64,000 nucleotides of DNA from Oscillatoriales cyanobacterium CG2_30_40_61 (GTDB taxonomy: Bacteria > Cyanobacteriota > Cyanobacteriia > Cyanobacteriales > Microcoleaceae), in NCBI GenBank assembly GCA_001873365.1, contig MNYZ01000087.1, positions 1 to 64,000 of the forward strand, read 5' to 3'. The position numbers and the translations under genes are program-made. Below are positions 1,436-27,862 of this stretch, piece by piece (positions within the stretch are counted from its first letter, which is position 1; every line of letters starts with the position of its first letter). The notes beneath the pieces are model-generated. The model saw only the letters and a program-made list of their open reading frames with translations, made no database searches and had not been told where the DNA came from.

Positions 1436-2782
1436 ATGGAACTTGATCTTGATCGCTTTTTTAAAGCTTCTAATCCGGCTGAAACCCTAGATGTAGAAAA
1501 CCCAGAAGATAAACAATACTATATTGATTTTTCTCCGGCGCGCGGAGGTAAACTGATTGAGCAAATTGCTCGAACAATTACTCGTTTATCACCCGATCGC
1601 CCCACTTGTCAACTCTTTACTGGTCATGTTGGAGCCGGAAAGTCAACGGAATTACTCCGACTTCAAGCTCAACTCAAAAAAGAAGGATTCCATGTCGTTT
1701 ATTTTGAGTCGAGCAAGGATTTAGATATGGGGGATGTGGATATTACAGATATTTTATTAGCGATCGCCCGTCAAGTCAGTGAAAGTATTGAACTCCTACA
1801 AATTAAATTAAAACCTAAAGGCTTTAAGAGTTTATTAAGTGGAGTAATCGGGGTTTTAAATACACAAATTGATTTAAAAGGAGATCTTAATTTACCTGGA
1901 ATTGGCACAGTTAGTGGGAATACGGAAGGGGAGTTTTCCCTTTCCACAGGAATTGGTAATATTACCGCTAAAACCAAAGATAGCCCAGATTTAAGATCTT
2001 TATTACGTCAATATTTAGAACCTCGAACCAATAATATTTTAGAGGCAATTAATAAAGAATTATTGGAACCTTCAATCGAGCAATTGAAACAAATGGGTAA
2101 AAAGGGGTTGGTGGTCATTGTTGATAATTTAGACCGAATCCATAATACCCAAAGCAGTACCGGACGTCCACGACCGGAATATTTATTTATTGATCGAGGC
2201 GAACAACTGAATAAACTCAATTGTCATGTTGTCTATACAATTCCATTAGGTTTAATTTTTTCTAATGATTTAGGACAACTAATGAATCGCTTTGGTAGCG
2301 ATCCGAAAACCTTACCCATGGTTACGGTAAAATTTGAAGATGGCACACGCTGTGAAGAAGGAATTGAACTGTTAAGACAAATGGTAATGGCTAGAGCCTT
2401 TCCGGGGATTGATCCCCAAGAATATACAAATTTAGTAACACAAATTTTTGATAGTCACGAGACCTTAGATCGACTTTGTACAATTAGTGGTGGTCATGTT
2501 CGGAGTTTACTAATTTTGTTATATAGCTGTTTACAAAGAGAAGATCCTCCATTAACCAGACAGTCCTTAGAGGAGGTAATTTTGCAGCGGCGTCACCAAT
2601 TAACCTTAGCAATTGAAGCCAATGAAAGAGAAATGTTGCGTCAAGTTGCAGCAACTAAAAAATTAAGTGGTCAAATGGAATATCAAACCCTATTAAGAAG
2701 TTTATGGGTGTTTGAATATCATCAATCTCAACATTTTTGGTATGATATTAACCCGATTTTAGCAGAAGCTCAGGAATTTTGA
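1436..2782 (+). CDS. P-loop (AAA/STAND-like) ATPase of unknown role
   Basis: 448 residues, soluble. Walker A is GHVGAGKST at 63-71 and a Walker B-like strand VVIVDNLDR lies at about 225-233, followed by a region with a conserved HVRSLLILL helix typical of AAA+ lid or STAND-type ATPases. Similar stand-alone ATPases are common in filamentous cyanobacteria; I know of no assigned function. The last 60 residues are helical with no recognisable sensor or effector domain. It begins 53 bases after the J-domain gene, so the two may be co-transcribed, which would suit a chaperone-like ATPase pair, but this is inference. A MITE-like element starts 18 bases after its stop, so a downstream partner could have been separated from it. 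Confidence 0.7.
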   Translation: MELDLDRFFKASNPAETLDVENPEDKQYYIDFSPARGGKLIEQIARTITRLSPDRPTCQLFTGHVGAGKSTELLRLQAQLKKEGFHVVYFESSKDLDMGDVDITDILLAIARQVSESIELLQIKLKPKGFKSLLSGVIGVLNTQIDLKGDLNLPGIGTVSGNTEGEFSLSTGIGNITAKTKDSPDLRSLLRQYLEPRTNNILEAINKELLEPSIEQLKQMGKKGLVVIVDNLDRIHNTQSSTGRPRPEYLFIDRGEQLNKLNCHVVYTIPLGLIFSNDLGQLMNRFGSDPKTLPMVTVKFEDGTRCEEGIELLRQMVMARAFPGIDPQEYTNLVTQIFDSHETLDRLCTISGGHVRSLLILLYSCLQREDPPLTRQSLEEVILQRRHQLTLAIEANEREMLRQVAATKKLSGQMEYQTLLRSLWVFEYHQSQHFWYDINPILAEAQEF

Positions 2783-2800
2783 ACACGAATTTAGATGAAT

Positions 2801-2960
2801 AGGACTTACGCAGGTTGACCGAGAAACCGGGTTTTTTAGATCATAAGTGGGTCACACGAAGTATTTTCGCCAAAAAAAACCGAGAAACCGGGTTTTTTAG
2901 ATCATAAGTGGGTCACACGAAGTATTTTCGCCAAAAACCCGGTTTCTGTGCATAAGTCCT
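2801..2960. mobile_element. MITE-like inverted-repeat element with internal tandem duplication (copy 1)
   Basis: Starts AGGACTTACGCA and ends TGCATAAGTCCT, imperfect terminal inverted repeats. Inside, a unit of about 61 bp (GAGAAACCGGGTTTTTTAG, then GTGGGTCACACGAAG, then TATTTTCGCC) is present twice in tandem (about 2819-2879 and 2880-2937), so this copy is some 50 bp longer than its relatives at 17688-17791 and 58317-58425. It has no coding capacity. It sits between the ATPase gene and the psbA terminator. Confidence 0.8.
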
Positions 2961-3050
2961 GATGGATTCAACCGATTGCACGGATTTTAGCTGGGCTTTA
3001 CCTAGCTATTTTTGATTTTTATAGTGCTATAGACAAAAAATTGACACAAA

Positions 3051-3080
3051 AAAACGCCTTCCAAAAGGAAAGCGTTTTTT
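3051..3080 (-). terminator. Rho-independent terminator of psbA
   Basis: On the minus strand the sequence reads AAAACGCTTTCC, loop TTTT, GGAAGGCGTT followed by a run of T. The stem is about 10 bp with one mismatch and the T tract follows in the psbA direction, 18 bases past the psbA stop codon. Confidence 0.85.
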
Positions 3081-3097
3081 ATGATTTAAGTCAAGAA

Positions 3098-4180
3098 CTA
3101 AGCATTAACTTTAGGAGCAACTAAAGCTACGGGAATAGATTCACCGGAAGCTAAGTCTAAGGGGAAGTTGTGGACATTGCGTTCGTGCATTGCCTCAATT
3201 CCCAAGTTGGCGTGATTGATCACATCAGCCCAGGTATTAATCACTCGACCCTCTGCATCCAGTAAGGACTCGTTAAAGTTAAAACCATTCAGATTGAATG
3301 CGAAGCAAGCCACCGCTAGGGATGCACACCAGATCCCAACTACTGGCCAAGCACCTAACAGGAAGTGTAAGCTCCGGCTGTTGTTGAAACTAGCGTACTG
3401 GAAGATTAAACGACCGAAGTAACCATGAGCCGCCACAATGTTGTAGGTTTCTTCTTCTTGACCGAATTTGTAACCCTGGTTTAGAGATTCATTTTCGCTA
3501 GTTTCACGAACTAAAGAAGATGTCACTAACGATCCGTGCATGGCGGCGAACAAAGCCCCACCAAAAACACCGACCACACCTAACATATGCAGGGGGTGCA
3601 TTAAGACGTTATGTTCGGCTTGCAGCACGATCATAAAGTTGAAAGTCCCGGAAATTCCCAGGGGTAAACCATCGGAGAAAGAACCCTGACCGATGGAATA
3701 AATCAGCAACACCGCAGTAGCAGCAGCCACAGGAGCACTGTAGGCAACAGCAATCCAAGGTCTCATCCCTAAACGATAGGATAATTCCCATTCCCGACCC
3801 ATGTAGCAAAAGATGCCGATCAGGAAGTGAAACACAATCATTTGGTAAGGGCCACCGTTATACAGCCACTCATCAATATTTGCGGCTTCCCAGATGGGAT
3901 AGAAGTGCAGACCAATGGCATTAGAACTCGGCACAACTGCTGCTGTGATCATGTTATTTCCGTAGAGCAGTGAGCCGGACACGGGTTCGCGGATACCGTC
4001 GATATCCACCGGAGGTGCGGCAATAAAGGCAAGGATGAAGCAGATGGTGGCTACCAGTAAGGTCGGAACCATCAAAACCCCAAACCACCCCAGATACAGG
4101 CGGTTTTCGGTACTTGTGACCCAGTTACAAAACCGTTCCCACAAGTTTTCACTTGACTGTCTTTGAATGCTAGTTGTCAT
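3098..4180 (-). CDS. psbA: Photosystem II D1 protein, D1' (low-oxygen) isoform
   Basis: 360 residues, the exact family length, five membrane helices. D1 carries P680, pheophytin, QB and most ligands of the Mn4CaO5 cluster in the thylakoid membrane. All functional residues are in place: Y161, D170, E189, H190, H198, H215, S264, H272, H332, E333, H337, D342 and the A344 processing site, followed by a 16-residue tail. Residue 130 is E, as in high-light type D1. The protein also has A80, L158 and A286, where common D1 forms have G, F and T. That triple set is the published hallmark of D1', the normally silent copy induced under microaerobic conditions in several cyanobacteria (established knowledge). 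C285 and C292 in helix V also differ from the usual sequence. This gene is therefore unlikely to be the main D1 copy; others should lie elsewhere. It stands alone with its own terminator and AT-rich upstream region. Confidence 0.97.
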
Positions 4181-4384
4181 TGAAGTTATATATTGCGTAT
4201 GTATTTTTCTAGGTGCGATATTTCGCTAACTGGTTTTACAACCATATAGTTATACTATTTGATTTTTTTAAATTTGTCTAGGGGTTTTAAATAAAAAAAA
4301 TATTGTTTTTTGAAGAAAAACATAATCTATGCTAATATATCGCCATCCCTCCCATCAGGAGAGGAATAATTTACAAGCAGAGGA
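4181..4384. promoter_or_regulatory. Divergent promoter region between psbA and the DUF3122-type gene
   Basis: A 204-base AT-rich region serving two divergent genes. For psbA (minus) a TAGACA box near 4273 and TATAAC/TAGTAT near 4249-4255 are plausible promoter elements. In the psbA leader the palindrome GCGATATTTCGC (4215-4226) could be an operator or RNA hairpin. For the plus-strand gene, GCTAATATA (about 4330-4338) resembles a -10 box. Exact boxes are tentative. Confidence 0.45.
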
Positions 4385-4900
4385 ATGATGTTGAGATTAT
4401 TAACTAAAGCCGTAGTCATCGGGATGACTTTGTTGTTCTTAAGCTTAGGGAGCCAATTTTTCATCCTAGAACCGGCCAACGCGACTATCAGGCAGCAACA
4501 GGAAGCCCCTGGACAAATTTTGTATCAATCCCGTCATAGCTTACGAGACGAAACCGGGACAGCTTGGCAAGTTGTTCTGTTTAAACGAGTCAAGAATGAT
4601 CAGATTGACACCATTAATTTACGTTTAGTGGGATTTCCGAATCAGGCTGTATTTCTTCATCCTCAAGGGTTAGAAATTATGACTTCTCAAGGCAGACTGT
4701 TTCAAGCTGAGGATCAATTCACTAAAAAGTCACCAGCCGCTAATGTTGGTGAATATAACCTCAAGGAAATTTTGCCTCAACTCCCCTCCACAGAACAGGT
4801 GAAACTACATTTACCGTTAGAGGGTCAACAACGCACTCTAAATCTTCCTTCTCCTATTATTTTAGAATGGCAAGAATTGATTAAACAGGAGAAAGGATGA
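4385..4900 (+). CDS. Secreted protein, DUF3122-like
   Basis: 171 residues with a clear signal peptide: a hydrophobic stretch at about 8-28 and likely cleavage after ANA at 33. The mature part contains YQSRHSLRDETGTAWQVVLF and later SQGRLFQAEDQF, a pattern I associate with the cyanobacterial DUF3122 family of unknown function (recognition moderate). It is preceded by AGAGGA. The stop overlaps the aroE start (ATGA), so the two genes form one transcript and are probably translationally coupled; no functional link to the shikimate pathway is evident. Confidence 0.75.
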   Translation: MMLRLLTKAVVIGMTLLFLSLGSQFFILEPANATIRQQQEAPGQILYQSRHSLRDETGTAWQVVLFKRVKNDQIDTINLRLVGFPNQAVFLHPQGLEIMTSQGRLFQAEDQFTKKSPAANVGEYNLKEILPQLPSTEQVKLHLPLEGQQRTLNLPSPIILEWQELIKQEKG

Positions 4901-5760
4901 TTAAAGGCACAACTAAACTACTAGGAGTAATCGGTGATCCGATTGAACATTCCCTTTCTCCAGTGATGCACAATGCCGCGATCGCCCATTTGGGAGTAGA
5001 TTATGTTTACCTGCCATTTGCTATTTCTCCTAATCATTTAAAAACCGCCCTGGAAGGATTTGCAGCTATTGGAATTCAGGGATTTAATATTACCATTCCC
5101 CACAAACAGGCGATTTTACCCTTTTTATCGGAAGTAACCACCCTAGCCCAGTCCGTCGGGGCGGTCAATACTGTTTGGCGGACTCAAAAAGGCTGGAGTG
5201 GCACAAATACCGATGTTGTGGGTTTTCTGACTCCCCTAGAGGTGTATCATCAAAACTGGAATGATCAGGTGGCTGTTATTCTGGGATATGGTGGGGCGGC
5301 GCGGGCGGTGGTGGCTGGATGTGCCCAGTTGGGGATCGGGGAAATTTATGTGGTCGGTCGTGATCCTCAGAAATTAGAGACATTTCAACGGAGTTGGAGC
5401 ACCTCCCCCCTGTCGGTCGAGGTTAAAACCTGTCCCTGGGAAGAATTATCGAGTCTGCTTCCCCAAGCGGACTTATTGGTAAATACGACCCCCGTAGGAA
5501 TGTATCCTAAGGTTCAGGAGTCTCCCGTTGAGGCGTCGGTGATGGATAAAATTAAACACCGGTGCATCGCCTATGATTTAATTTATATTCCTGAAACGAC
5601 CCAATTCTTGAATTTAGCCGCCACTAGAGGTGCGATAATTTTAAATGGATTACCAATGTTAGTAATTCAGGGAGCCGCCGCCTTAGAATTGTGGTTACAG
5701 CAACCTGTTCCTGTCGAGATTATGCGTCAGTCTCTCCGGGATTATCTAAATCTAAAATAA
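4897..5760 (+). CDS. aroE: Shikimate 5-dehydrogenase
   Basis: 287 residues, full length. It reduces 3-dehydroshikimate to shikimate with NADPH in aromatic amino-acid and quinone-precursor synthesis in the cytosol. Visible landmarks: substrate site SLSPVMHN (19-26), NITIPHK with catalytic K70, N91, D106 in GTNTDVVGF, and the Rossmann loop GYGGAARAVV (130-139). C-terminal NGLPMLVIQGA is typical of the family. It overlaps the upstream secreted-protein gene by four bases and is followed 12 bases later by another small secreted protein gene. Confidence 0.96.
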   Translation: MIKGTTKLLGVIGDPIEHSLSPVMHNAAIAHLGVDYVYLPFAISPNHLKTALEGFAAIGIQGFNITIPHKQAILPFLSEVTTLAQSVGAVNTVWRTQKGWSGTNTDVVGFLTPLEVYHQNWNDQVAVILGYGGAARAVVAGCAQLGIGEIYVVGRDPQKLETFQRSWSTSPLSVEVKTCPWEELSSLLPQADLLVNTTPVGMYPKVQESPVEASVMDKIKHRCIAYDLIYIPETTQFLNLAATRGAIILNGLPMLVIQGAAALELWLQQPVPVEIMRQSLRDYLNLK

Positions 5761-25861: not shown

Positions 25862-27862
25862 ATGATGCTAGAAAAAAAACTTTCCCCAGAATCCTTTATG
25901 GGTCAAACCCATTCGATCTTTCCAGAAGTTGAAATCTGGAAAGATCCCACCGTTGATCTCAAAGTCTGGCCCGAAAAACAAAAACTTCTTTCTGCGGATA
26001 GTCCTGAACTCTTGATCCCACAACCAGAAATTTTTGAAGCGATCGCGGAAATTACACCGATTCCGATCATGATTAGCCGTTTATCCGATGGTTTAATCTT
26101 ATCCGCTAATTCTTTTTCCAGTCAGTTATTTAATTTCCCCCTGAATCAAATCAAAATTATCACAACTCTGGATTTTTATACTATTGCCTCAGATCGACAA
26201 AAATTAATTGATAAAATTATCACGGAAGGCTATGTTCACAACCATGAATTAGAAGTCAGAAAAACCGATAGAACTCCTTTTTGGGTGATGGGTTCCTTCC
26301 AAATTATCCCCTTTCAAGGAGAGCAAGCCATCCTTTCGATTTTCCATGATATTACGAAGCGAAAAAAAACCGAAGCCACCCTACAATTAAGTACAGAAAG
26401 ACTATATCGCCAAAATGTTGCCCTACGGGATTTAAGTCGAGAACAAACCCGCAATTATGATCATATCGATACAGCTATTCGTCAAATTACCGAAACCGCC
26501 GCTCATACTTTAGATGTTGACAGAGTGAGTGTTTGGCTCCATAGTGGCTTGGGTGATTCTGTGTCAGATCACGAGGGAGTCAATGATTTAAACCCAGCCT
26601 TTGGAGATGAAATTTGGGTAAAACAAAATGCTTTAGAATGGATTTGTTTAGACTTATATGAACGTCAAACCCATCACCATTTCCCCGAGGAATCAGCCAT
26701 CATTAATCATAATATTTCCCTGTTTTCAAATCCGTTTAATTTGAAAAAATTCTCATTTTATCCCCTAGATTTATTAACTAAATCTTTAGCTAAATCATCC
26801 CAAATAATTGACAATAATCTTAGCTCTTTTTTGAGTCACTGTTTAGATATACCTATTTGGTTAGATGGCAAAATTATTGGGTTTATTTGTGTTGAATATC
26901 CCATAAATCAACAGGACTGTAGCCTAGAAGATCGAATATTTATTGATTCCTTAGCGAATTTAGTTGCCTTAGCAATTGAACGATTTGAACGAATTAAAGC
27001 TGAAAAAGCCTTAGCTCAGGTCAAAAATGAGCTAGAAATTAGAGTTAAAAAACGCACAATAGAATTACAAGAAGCCGTCCAACAGTTACGAATAGAAATG
27101 ATAGAAAGGTTGAAAGTAGAAGGGGTTTTACAAACGGCTTTACATCAAGCTCAAGCCGCTTCCCAAGCTAAAAGTACCTTCTTAGCAAACATGAGTCATG
27201 AGTTACGCACACCTCTACACGCCATTATCGGCTTTAGCGATTTATTACTCGAAGAAGTAGTTGAGCAAAAACTTGATGATCTCTTACCCGATGTGGAAAA
27301 AATCCATCAGTCCGGCCACCATTTACTTACCTTAATTAATGACATTCTGGATTTATGTAAGGTTGAAGCTGGACAAATGCCTTTATCTTTAGAAACCTTT
27401 GAAGTGGCTAGTTTTGTTCATGATGTGGTGACTTCCTTACAACCCCTCGCCGATCAAAATCAAAACCTGGTACAAATTTGTTGTAAAAATAATTTGGATA
27501 TCATGGAGGGAGATATCAATAAAATTCGACAAATTCTTTATAATATAATCAGTAATGCCCTAAAATTTACCCATCAGGGCAAAGTCACCCTCAGTCTCAA
27601 GCGAGAACAAAATGAAGATTTAGACTGGATTTGTTTTGAAGTCACGGACACCGGAATTGGGATTTCTCGTGAACAGCAGAAAAATTTATTTCAAGCCTTT
27701 ACTCAAGTTGATAATTCTTTCAGTCGGGAGTATGGTGGCACGGGTTTAGGTTTAGCAATTACCCATCACTATTGCAAAATGCTGGGAGGACAAATCAGCG
27801 TTTCTAGCCAACTCGGAGTCGGTTCTAAATTTACAGTTTATCTCCCAACCGCCCCGATTTAA
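25862..27862 (+). CDS. PAS-GAF sensor histidine kinase
   Basis: 666 residues, no membrane helices, so cytosolic. Order: PAS domain (about 60-180, ending in ILSIFHDITKRKK), coiled coil, GAF domain (about 200-380) interrupted by a long insert, coiled coil, HisKA with phosphoacceptor H446 in NMSHELRTPLHAIIGFS, and HATPase with NALKFT, DTGIGI and GTGLGLA. No receiver domain is attached and no response regulator is adjacent, so it is an orphan kinase. The signal could be a small ligand or light/redox cue sensed by PAS or GAF; the GAF lacks an obvious bilin-binding cysteine motif. Confidence 0.92.
   Translation: MMLEKKLSPESFMGQTHSIFPEVEIWKDPTVDLKVWPEKQKLLSADSPELLIPQPEIFEAIAEITPIPIMISRLSDGLILSANSFSSQLFNFPLNQIKIITTLDFYTIASDRQKLIDKIITEGYVHNHELEVRKTDRTPFWVMGSFQIIPFQGEQAILSIFHDITKRKKTEATLQLSTERLYRQNVALRDLSREQTRNYDHIDTAIRQITETAAHTLDVDRVSVWLHSGLGDSVSDHEGVNDLNPAFGDEIWVKQNALEWICLDLYERQTHHHFPEESAIINHNISLFSNPFNLKKFSFYPLDLLTKSLAKSSQIIDNNLSSFLSHCLDIPIWLDGKIIGFICVEYPINQQDCSLEDRIFIDSLANLVALAIERFERIKAEKALAQVKNELEIRVKKRTIELQEAVQQLRIEMIERLKVEGVLQTALHQAQAASQAKSTFLANMSHELRTPLHAIIGFSDLLLEEVVEQKLDDLLPDVEKIHQSGHHLLTLINDILDLCKVEAGQMPLSLETFEVASFVHDVVTSLQPLADQNQNLVQICCKNNLDIMEGDINKIRQILYNIISNALKFTHQGKVTLSLKREQNEDLDWICFEVTDTGIGISREQQKNLFQAFTQVDNSFSREYGGTGLGLAITHHYCKMLGGQISVSSQLGVGSKFTVYLPTAPI

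Follow-up and report, generated by a model that had tools for sequence, protein, structure and literature searches.

A conserved candidate promoter element, shared with chlAII, at the gene for a low-oxygen D1 isoform (D1') in Planktothrix

Introduction

The stretch of DNA analysed here (the window, 64,000 nucleotides and part of contig C17 in the 4.82 Mb genome, of 119 contigs, of a freshwater Planktothrix) carries a psbA gene, which raises the question of whether the D1 protein it encodes is a functional low-oxygen isoform and, if so, how that gene might be switched. The D1' isoform and its induction at low oxygen are established, as passages of three papers set out (PMC4582080, PMC5061849, PMC4500134), and we evaluated the window gene by its residues, its relatives, its site in the genus and its upstream region.

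Results

An intact D1' gene with all manganese-cluster ligands

The gene and its diagnostic codons are placed as follows, the codon coordinates being derived by arithmetic from the ATG at 4180:

3098..4180, minus strand: psbA, D1' (microaerobic, group 3) isoform, 360 aa, from ORF, profile match, residues and tree
3941..3943, minus strand: codon 80, Ala (Gly in standard D1)
3707..3709, minus strand: codon 158, Leu (Phe in standard D1)
3695..3697, minus strand: codon 162, Ser (Pro in standard D1), adjoining TyrZ Y161; a mark of the D1' subgroup
3323..3325, minus strand: codon 286, Ala (Thr in standard D1)

The open reading frame is intact from its ATG at 4180, whereas the plus-strand reading of 3098-4180 holds 19 stops, and the protein matched the NCBIfam psbA equivalog at 734.7 bits (cut-off 596). 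Reading residues by script, we recovered everything that the first-pass annotation had counted from the translation, namely the D1' triple A80, L158 and A286, the residues E130, Y161, D170, E189, H190, H198, H215, S264, H332, E333, H337, D342 and A344, and the two cysteines C285 and C292. All Mn4CaO5 ligands are kept, without the ligand loss that defines rogue D1 or ChlF, and because the Mn/Ca ligands are intact it is a sensible expectation that the protein would assemble into a water-oxidising photosystem II. The dN/dS of the gene against five congeneric D1' orthologues was 0.069-0.078, so it is not a decayed reading frame and, judged by these ratios, is under purifying selection.

Three further psbA pieces lie at contig ends of the same genome, on C12 (residues 1-90), C13 (1-48) and C40 (265-359), and look like standard D1 broken by assembly. 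G80 is present in the C12 piece and T286 in the C40 piece, while no match covers residues 91-264, so that position 158 is unreadable there. The alignment with the genome's psbA copies that had been proposed thus showed that A80/L158/A286 is not common to all of them.

Residue marks and tree position of the D1' class

Comparing 135 distinct psbA proteins (32 with S162, 94 with the standard G/F/T triple and 9 with neither), in which S162 and the standard triple are given by the grouping and positions 186, 192, 293 and 336 are independent of it, we found L186, V192, F293 and V336 in 32/32 S162-type D1' and F186, I192, M293 and A336 in 94/94 standard proteins. Within the S162 type, A80 and A286 were invariant, position 158 was Leu in 31 and Ile in one, position 289 was Ala in 29 of 32, and position 292 was Cys in 24 and Ser in 8, against Thr in all 94 standard proteins. 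At every one of these positions the window protein agrees with D1'. Both cysteines of helix V had been listed as further departures; C292 turned out to be a mark of the class, and C285 keeps that description, being found in 10 of the 32 (six Planktothrix, L116, L285 and the Nostoc-type L027 and L134, which are 97% identical). E130 is not diagnostic, occurring in 14/32 S162-type and 62/94 standard proteins. When rows were picked by the A/L/A triple (33 including duplicates), 32 of 33 carried S162, the exception being PsbA2 of Thermosynechococcus elongatus. The three-residue signature on which D1' identity had been based is thus present, but the class has more marks than that, and L186, V192, F293 and V336 make a sharper sequence test for this D1' subgroup than the usual three. 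As a separate observation, some standard-like D1 proteins hold a single D1' replacement, either L158 alone (L063, L026) or A80 alone (L055, L062, L056), with Y124 and A162 in L055 and L062.

A maximum-likelihood tree of 74 rows (all 43 non-standard and 31 of 93 standard) placed 38 D1'-type rows, T. elongatus PsbA2 among them, in one bipartition against the rest with support of 100, and recovered the S162 subclade of 33 rows with support of only 54. This tree supports placing the window protein in the D1' (group 3) clan, and the identity first proposed for it is borne out by residues, tree and promoter together. An apparent position of T. elongatus PsbA2 nearer to standard D1 was rejected as an artefact of midpoint rooting, given that bipartition.

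Known D1' proteins differ in how closely they resemble the window protein. The T. elongatus/vestitus PsbA2 (PDB 7yq2) shares the clan, A80/L158/A286, L172 and I328, but unlike the window D1 it keeps P162, F186, I192, T292, M293 and A336; it also has P144, F147 and M173 and groups with the P162 proteins L293-L296 (support 73), so that on residue positions and tree grouping it is without most marks of the window protein's subgroup. It is the microaerobic D1 in whose crystal structure Ala286 loses a hydrogen bond to PD1, according to passages of PMC9709244. The psbA1-type D1' of Synechocystis (S. salina L074 and other S162 proteins) agrees with the window D1 in A80/L158/A286, S162, L186, V192, C292, F293, V336 and all ligands and, as in Planktothrix, is a minority copy beside standard copies, whereas the S. 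salina protein has F285 and C144 in place of C285 and A144, and its promoter is without the TATAAC-TATATRGTT element of the Planktothrix D1' promoter. The Arthrospira D1' proteins (L006, L090, L091; PDB 8wql chain D1) are 87% identical and have the same marks, but they carry F285 and their genes lie in another neighbourhood; the two Arthrospira genomes that we searched each have a single acsF and a single heme oxygenase gene. The D1' of Planktothrix paucivesiculata PCC 9631 (NZ_LR735013.1) is 98% identical. In PDB 8wql, which we take to be linked to the 2024 paper on the in situ phycobilisome-PSII assembly, the deposited D1 (chain AD) equals Arthrospira D1' (L090/L006) over 358 residues and not standard D1, so either those cells contained D1' or the model used the other paralogue.

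Two readings would deny the gene a place among cellular, functional D1'. An ordinary D1 could have reached A80/L158/A286 by convergence and without D1' function, and single replacements do occur in standard-like D1 (3 AFT and 2 GLT rows among 143), with A286 reported for T. vulcanus PsbA1 in passages of PMC12107152; however, the four further positions match 32/32 S162-type and 0/94 standard proteins, and the window protein lies inside the D1' clan and has a D1' promoter element, which led us to reject a convergent triple as very improbable. A phage-borne psbA, carried as an auxiliary metabolic gene, draws on the match of the window D1 to PHROG 182 and on the 512 phage records with psbA, yet the best listed phage D1 is about 80% identical, and a Pfam comparison of six neighbouring proteins turned up no phage family, one of the six being without any match. 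With cellular D1' closer (98% and 87%), phage origin was likewise rejected and appears extremely improbable.

An accessory gene at variable sites in Planktothrix

The surroundings of the gene are these:

1436..2782, plus strand: P-loop ATPase ORF (448 aa), left border of the variable D1' site
3049..3080, no strand: inverted repeat just 3' of the psbA stop, possible terminator
4385..4900, plus strand: DUF3122 protein, right border of the D1' gene
4897..5760, plus strand: shikimate dehydrogenase (aroE), right anchor of the site

D1' is intact in six of ten Planktothrix genomes (the source genome G000, G047, G048, G050, G052 and G053) and lies in two pieces in the G049 assembly (73% complete); it was not found in G045, G046 and G051, which are 99-100% complete. 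It occupies three sites, one between the ATPase and DUF3122-aroE (G000, G047, G049, G052), a second in G048 and a third in G050/G053, and the ATPase-aroE interval is empty (about 80-90 bp) in G045 and G051. Intact copies in 6/10 genomes, three sites and two clean empty sites make D1' an accessory trait within Planktothrix. In G052 the D1' and DUF3122 genes are close to those of the source genome, yet a tree of acs and aroE groups G052 with G048 (support 100), a discordance that points to exchange of D1' between species. The same tree joins G051 to G047 (96) and has nodes of 54 and 48, so that an empty site may reflect either loss or a state before insertion. An inverted repeat like that at 3049..3080, which a terminator scan did not flag, occurs in the other aligned Planktothrix D1' loci, and because this repeat and the last ~110 upstream bases are conserved across differing gene neighbourhoods, the D1' gene appears to be mobile together with its own control region.

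Elsewhere in the genus the ATPase-aroE interval (window 2782-4897) holds other cargo, with Septu (PtuA/PtuB) genes in G048 and AbiLi-like, weakly HEC-01B-like and PDC-S03 genes in G046, so that a photosystem gene here occupies a spot otherwise used by defence-type genes.

A palindromic element upstream of D1' genes

Reading D1' upstream regions side by side, we saw a palindrome with the consensus TATATAACTATATAGTTATA, represented at the window gene by:

4237..4256, minus strand: palindromic element AGTATAACTATATGGTTGTA, candidate operator, matrix score 24.3
4249..4280, minus strand: promoter-like hexamers TAGACA (4275-4280) and TATAAC (4249-4254) with a spacer of 20, overlapping the candidate operator; tentative

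A promoter scan paired TAGACA alternatively with TAGTAT (spacer 17) and gave no more promoter-like sites than in shuffles. Across the 64-kb window the element at 4237-4256 was the only match of at least 12, the next scoring 11.2 at 26848, and across 212 kb of other Planktothrix and Arthrospira stretches this threshold was reached by six D1' promoters and otherwise by a single weak site (12.0).

Allowing at most two mismatches, the consensus TAACTATATAGTTA occurred in 16/22 D1' upstreams against 0/96 standard ones and in 1.2% of dinucleotide shuffles, the 16/22 and 0/96 being counted on sequences from which the consensus itself was read. An enumeration of 2,816 inverted-repeat patterns in D1' and standard upstreams was headed by TATA-N4-TATA (10/25 versus 0/88, p 5e-8) and ATAT-N4-ATAT (13/25 versus 3/88), both of which occur in the element. 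After removal of near-duplicates (D1' upstreams from 56 to 25, standard from 108 to 88), leave-one-out matrices trained without proteins at least 92% identical gave 21 of 25 D1' upstreams a higher score than any of the 88 standard psbA upstreams, whose maximum was 7.0; the window upstream scored 12.9, a value reached by 0/88, and the four misses were L117, L131, L287 and L281. Among P162 D1'-like upstreams, L293 (18.3) and L294 (10.4) exceeded 7.0, with L296 (5.6) and L295 (-8.3) below it. A later hold-out at up to two mismatches gave 3/13 D1'-like against 0/5 standard upstreams, every match being of the S162 type (3/9 with S162, 0/4 with P162). L027 had been left out of the upstream counts for a one-residue length difference, being 97% identical to L134, and when scored afterwards had the element at 27.1.

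The element is absent from the Synechocystis-type D1' upstreams L074, L281 and L282. Its position relative to the presumed promoter varies between genera, so an activator and a repressor are indistinguishable. Other candidate signals separated the two gene classes less well or were rejected: exact TAAC-N6-GTTA was a weak separator (9/25 D1' versus 5/88 standard); a promoter with a fixed 20-base spacer (9/23 versus 2/97) fits less well than the palindrome; and TGGTT-N4-AACCA, from the window D1' promoter, with TAGTT-N4-AACTA, from chlAII, resembled a shared operator but was given up for the wider palindrome, because across nine genomes of the genus it gave 20 hits against 33 for the reversed control, with recurrence at the two source promoters and, in G050 and G053, at a further site resembling them.

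Two further patterns were observed in D1' upstreams. Members of family f29 (L117, L120, L131) share, by eye, AAAAAGTGATTAAGC instead of the palindrome, suggesting that a different regulator may act in that family, and a second inverted repeat, AAGG-N8-CCTT, occurs in 8/25 D1' (L123, L119, L118, L134 and others) and 0/88 standard upstreams, lying between palindrome and start codon where inspected, as a possible 5'UTR hairpin.

The element recurs upstream of chlAII

The source genome has two acsF and two heme oxygenase genes, the second pair forming a divergent chlAII / ho2-hemN module with hemJ after it and an ArsR-family gene before it; chlAII is the second cyclase gene, of the low-oxygen type. 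We scored 49 acsF loci, none used in building the matrix, over 350 bp upstream, taking as chlAII the copy beside a heme oxygenase or else the copy closer to the ChlAII of the source genome. The element exceeded 7.0 upstream of 18/23 chlAII (11/15 outside Planktothrix, 7/8 within) and of 2/24 chlAI genes (2/15 outside, G082 at 21.0 and G263 at 7.4, and 0/9 within), counts which, the genomes being related, are not independent events. The two single Arthrospira acsF copies did not score above 7.0, and further matched acsF genes went unscored (full-length in G335, G333 and G381, fragments in G201 and G045, and G049). The chlAII/ho2 spacer of the source genome scored 10.7, above the standard psbA maximum of 7.0 and below the scan threshold of 12.

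At least two acsF genes were found in each of 15 chosen D1'-bearing genomes from other families, a sample of D1'-bearing genomes only. In both Arthrospira genomes D1' and its element occur beside a single acsF and a single heme oxygenase gene, and G046 and G051 keep chlAII and ho2 without D1', so the association of D1' with a second acsF/heme oxygenase set is suggestive and not strict. In G045, which is without D1', the chlAII-ho2-hemN module is reduced to fragments (L257 5878-6075) and the ArsR gene and hemJ remain.

A candidate ArsR/SmtB-family regulator

Scanning 191 kb that surround D1' or chlAII genes of nine further genomes, together with the source genome's own module, we found 24 sites of at least 12 (3 of them D1' promoters used in matrix training) against 0-2 in each of five shuffles; 22 of the 24 lay outside ORFs, where non-ORF DNA made up 17%, and no such site was seen in L349 or in the source genome's own L249. 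In G355, a stretch of about 16 kb has sites ahead of chlAII with its divergent hemF, of an ArsR gene, of D1', of a flavoprotein resembling SQR (105 bits, where the curated cut-off is 525) and of a Rieske protein, PetC, which passes its cut-off of 250 with 280.7 bits.

Homologues of the G355 ArsR protein (48-71% over the aligned part) occur in D1'/chlAII loci of several genomes and also in two Microcoleus standard psbA loci. Measured edge to edge, an ArsR gene lay within 1.5 kb of psbA in 4/22 S162 loci against 1/79 standard loci, and within 2 kb in 4/22 against 2/79 (Microcoleus L012 and L021); measured to midpoint, the standard count was 0/79. In the source genome the ArsR gene, on contig C71, is near chlAII and not near D1'. 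Our candidate is an ArsR/SmtB sensor, encoded close to chlAII in this genome and close to D1' in certain other cyanobacteria. Within 250 bp upstream, seven non-Planktothrix ArsR genes of D1'/chlAII loci have a site (9.3-22.8), while ten Planktothrix (at most 2.7, the source genome's own at -0.9) and two Microcoleus ones (0.4 and 5.8) have no element. Among 19 ArsR proteins, a Cys before the recognition helix was present in 16, and two near the C-terminus in 18 and 19. This pattern recalls BigR/SqrR, the sulfur sensors with two Cys that passages of PMC8960804 describe, and we infer that these proteins may sense thiols or persulfide and bind the element.

For SufR, as a further candidate, the exact site CAAC-N6-GTTG was found in 0/25 D1' upstreams, while the looser core AAC-N6-GTT occurred in 14/25 D1' against 11/88 standard upstreams. 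A SufR paralogue was rejected as regulator, each of 14/14 genomes having one SufR and no paralogue, which does not reject SufR itself.

Discussion

We interpret the window gene as a functional accessory D1' isoform in Planktothrix with a proposed low-oxygen/sulfide switch acting through the element, and give this reading a probability of roughly 0.8. The element would be an operator, most likely for a thiol sensor of the ArsR/SmtB family. In oxic cells D1 would be supplied by the standard psbA genes; as oxygen falls (or sulfide rises) the regulator would be released or recruited, and D1' would then be made together with ChlAII, HO2 and HemN and would replace D1. Because A80, L158, A286, S162 and L186 are situated around TyrZ, ChlD1 and PD1, D1' should alter P680 and TyrZ energetics while water oxidation stays. 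Passages of PMC5295598 cite the view that photosystem II with the Acaryochloris low-oxygen D1 evolves no oxygen; that protein may not be of the D1' class. Against our interpretation, control is not uniform, given the missing element in Synechocystis-type D1' and the binding of ChlR to psbA1 there; the source genome's own chlAII/ho2 spacer reaches only 10.7 and its own ArsR upstream -0.9; and Arthrospira has D1' with the element beside single acsF and heme oxygenase genes, as G046 and G051 have chlAII/ho2 without D1'.

Two other accounts would keep the D1' identity and change its regulation or its fate. The main regulator could be ChlR, as in Synechocystis 6803, where passages of PMC4500134 describe this MarR protein with a [4Fe-4S] cluster as binding the psbA1 promoter and activating chlAII-ho2-hemN, the palindrome then being a different or secondary site. 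The target genes are indeed of the same kind, but the published ChlR motif, TTMCC-N3/4-GGWAA (given in passages of PMC13421787 and PMC5295598), differs from the palindrome, and as an exact pattern it is in neither the D1' upstream nor the chlAII/ho2 spacer of the source genome; it was rejected as the D1' element, and we consider ChlR control unlikely here. The candidate regulator in this case is of another family, ArsR/SmtB. That the genus is losing the gene, or carries it unexpressed, would fit its lack in G045, G046 and G051, its two pieces in G049 and the empty ATPase-aroE sites, but the low dN/dS and an upstream region conserved in three gene neighbourhoods speak against it, as do the transcripts that passages of PMC8651085 report for a Planktothrix bin with type 3 psbA, and we regard it as improbable. 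By that same report D1' in Planktothrix is already published, and the window gene, as a gene, is a further member of a known family.

More broadly, the switched accessory D1' may be one target of a hitherto undescribed regulon for low oxygen or sulfide that many cyanobacteria would share. The palindrome TATATAACTATATAGTTATA would be its mark, and its regulator an ArsR/SmtB thiol sensor that has a CxxxC near the C-terminus and a Cys in the helix preceding the recognition helix; we hold this to be slightly better than an even bet. Further targets of the regulon would be chlAII, a second hemF or ho2, a PetC Rieske variant and an SQR-like flavoprotein, and the sensor would also control itself, outside Planktothrix only. 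Were this so, D1' and the chlAII/ho2-hemN module of this organism would answer to one switch, and the palindrome would be the cis-element behind the link proposed between sqr and alternative psbA genes; a 2016 genome paper (passages of PMC5061849) put forward, as a target for study, that psbA of groups 2/3 may be controlled jointly with sqr and arsR-like genes. The palindrome, its sharing with chlAII and the ArsR genes that in places lie close by make D1' switching directly testable beyond Synechocystis, where ChlR is documented. The conserved D1' promoter element shared with chlAII is, as far as a text search that left most subscription papers outside its scope can weakly indicate, new, the palindrome being absent from the literature searched, and it is this element, with the regulator to which it may point, that raises the interest of the locus.

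A last observation concerns repeats. Near the downstream end of D1' (window 2818-2937) a 59-base unit (ACCGAGAAACCGGG...) stands twice in tandem, the copies being identical and containing inverted repeats; it may be a small mobile repeat, and a similar-looking stretch interrupts the source genome's chlAII/ho2 spacer (L249 about 5445-5552), which is ~105 bases longer than those of its relatives.
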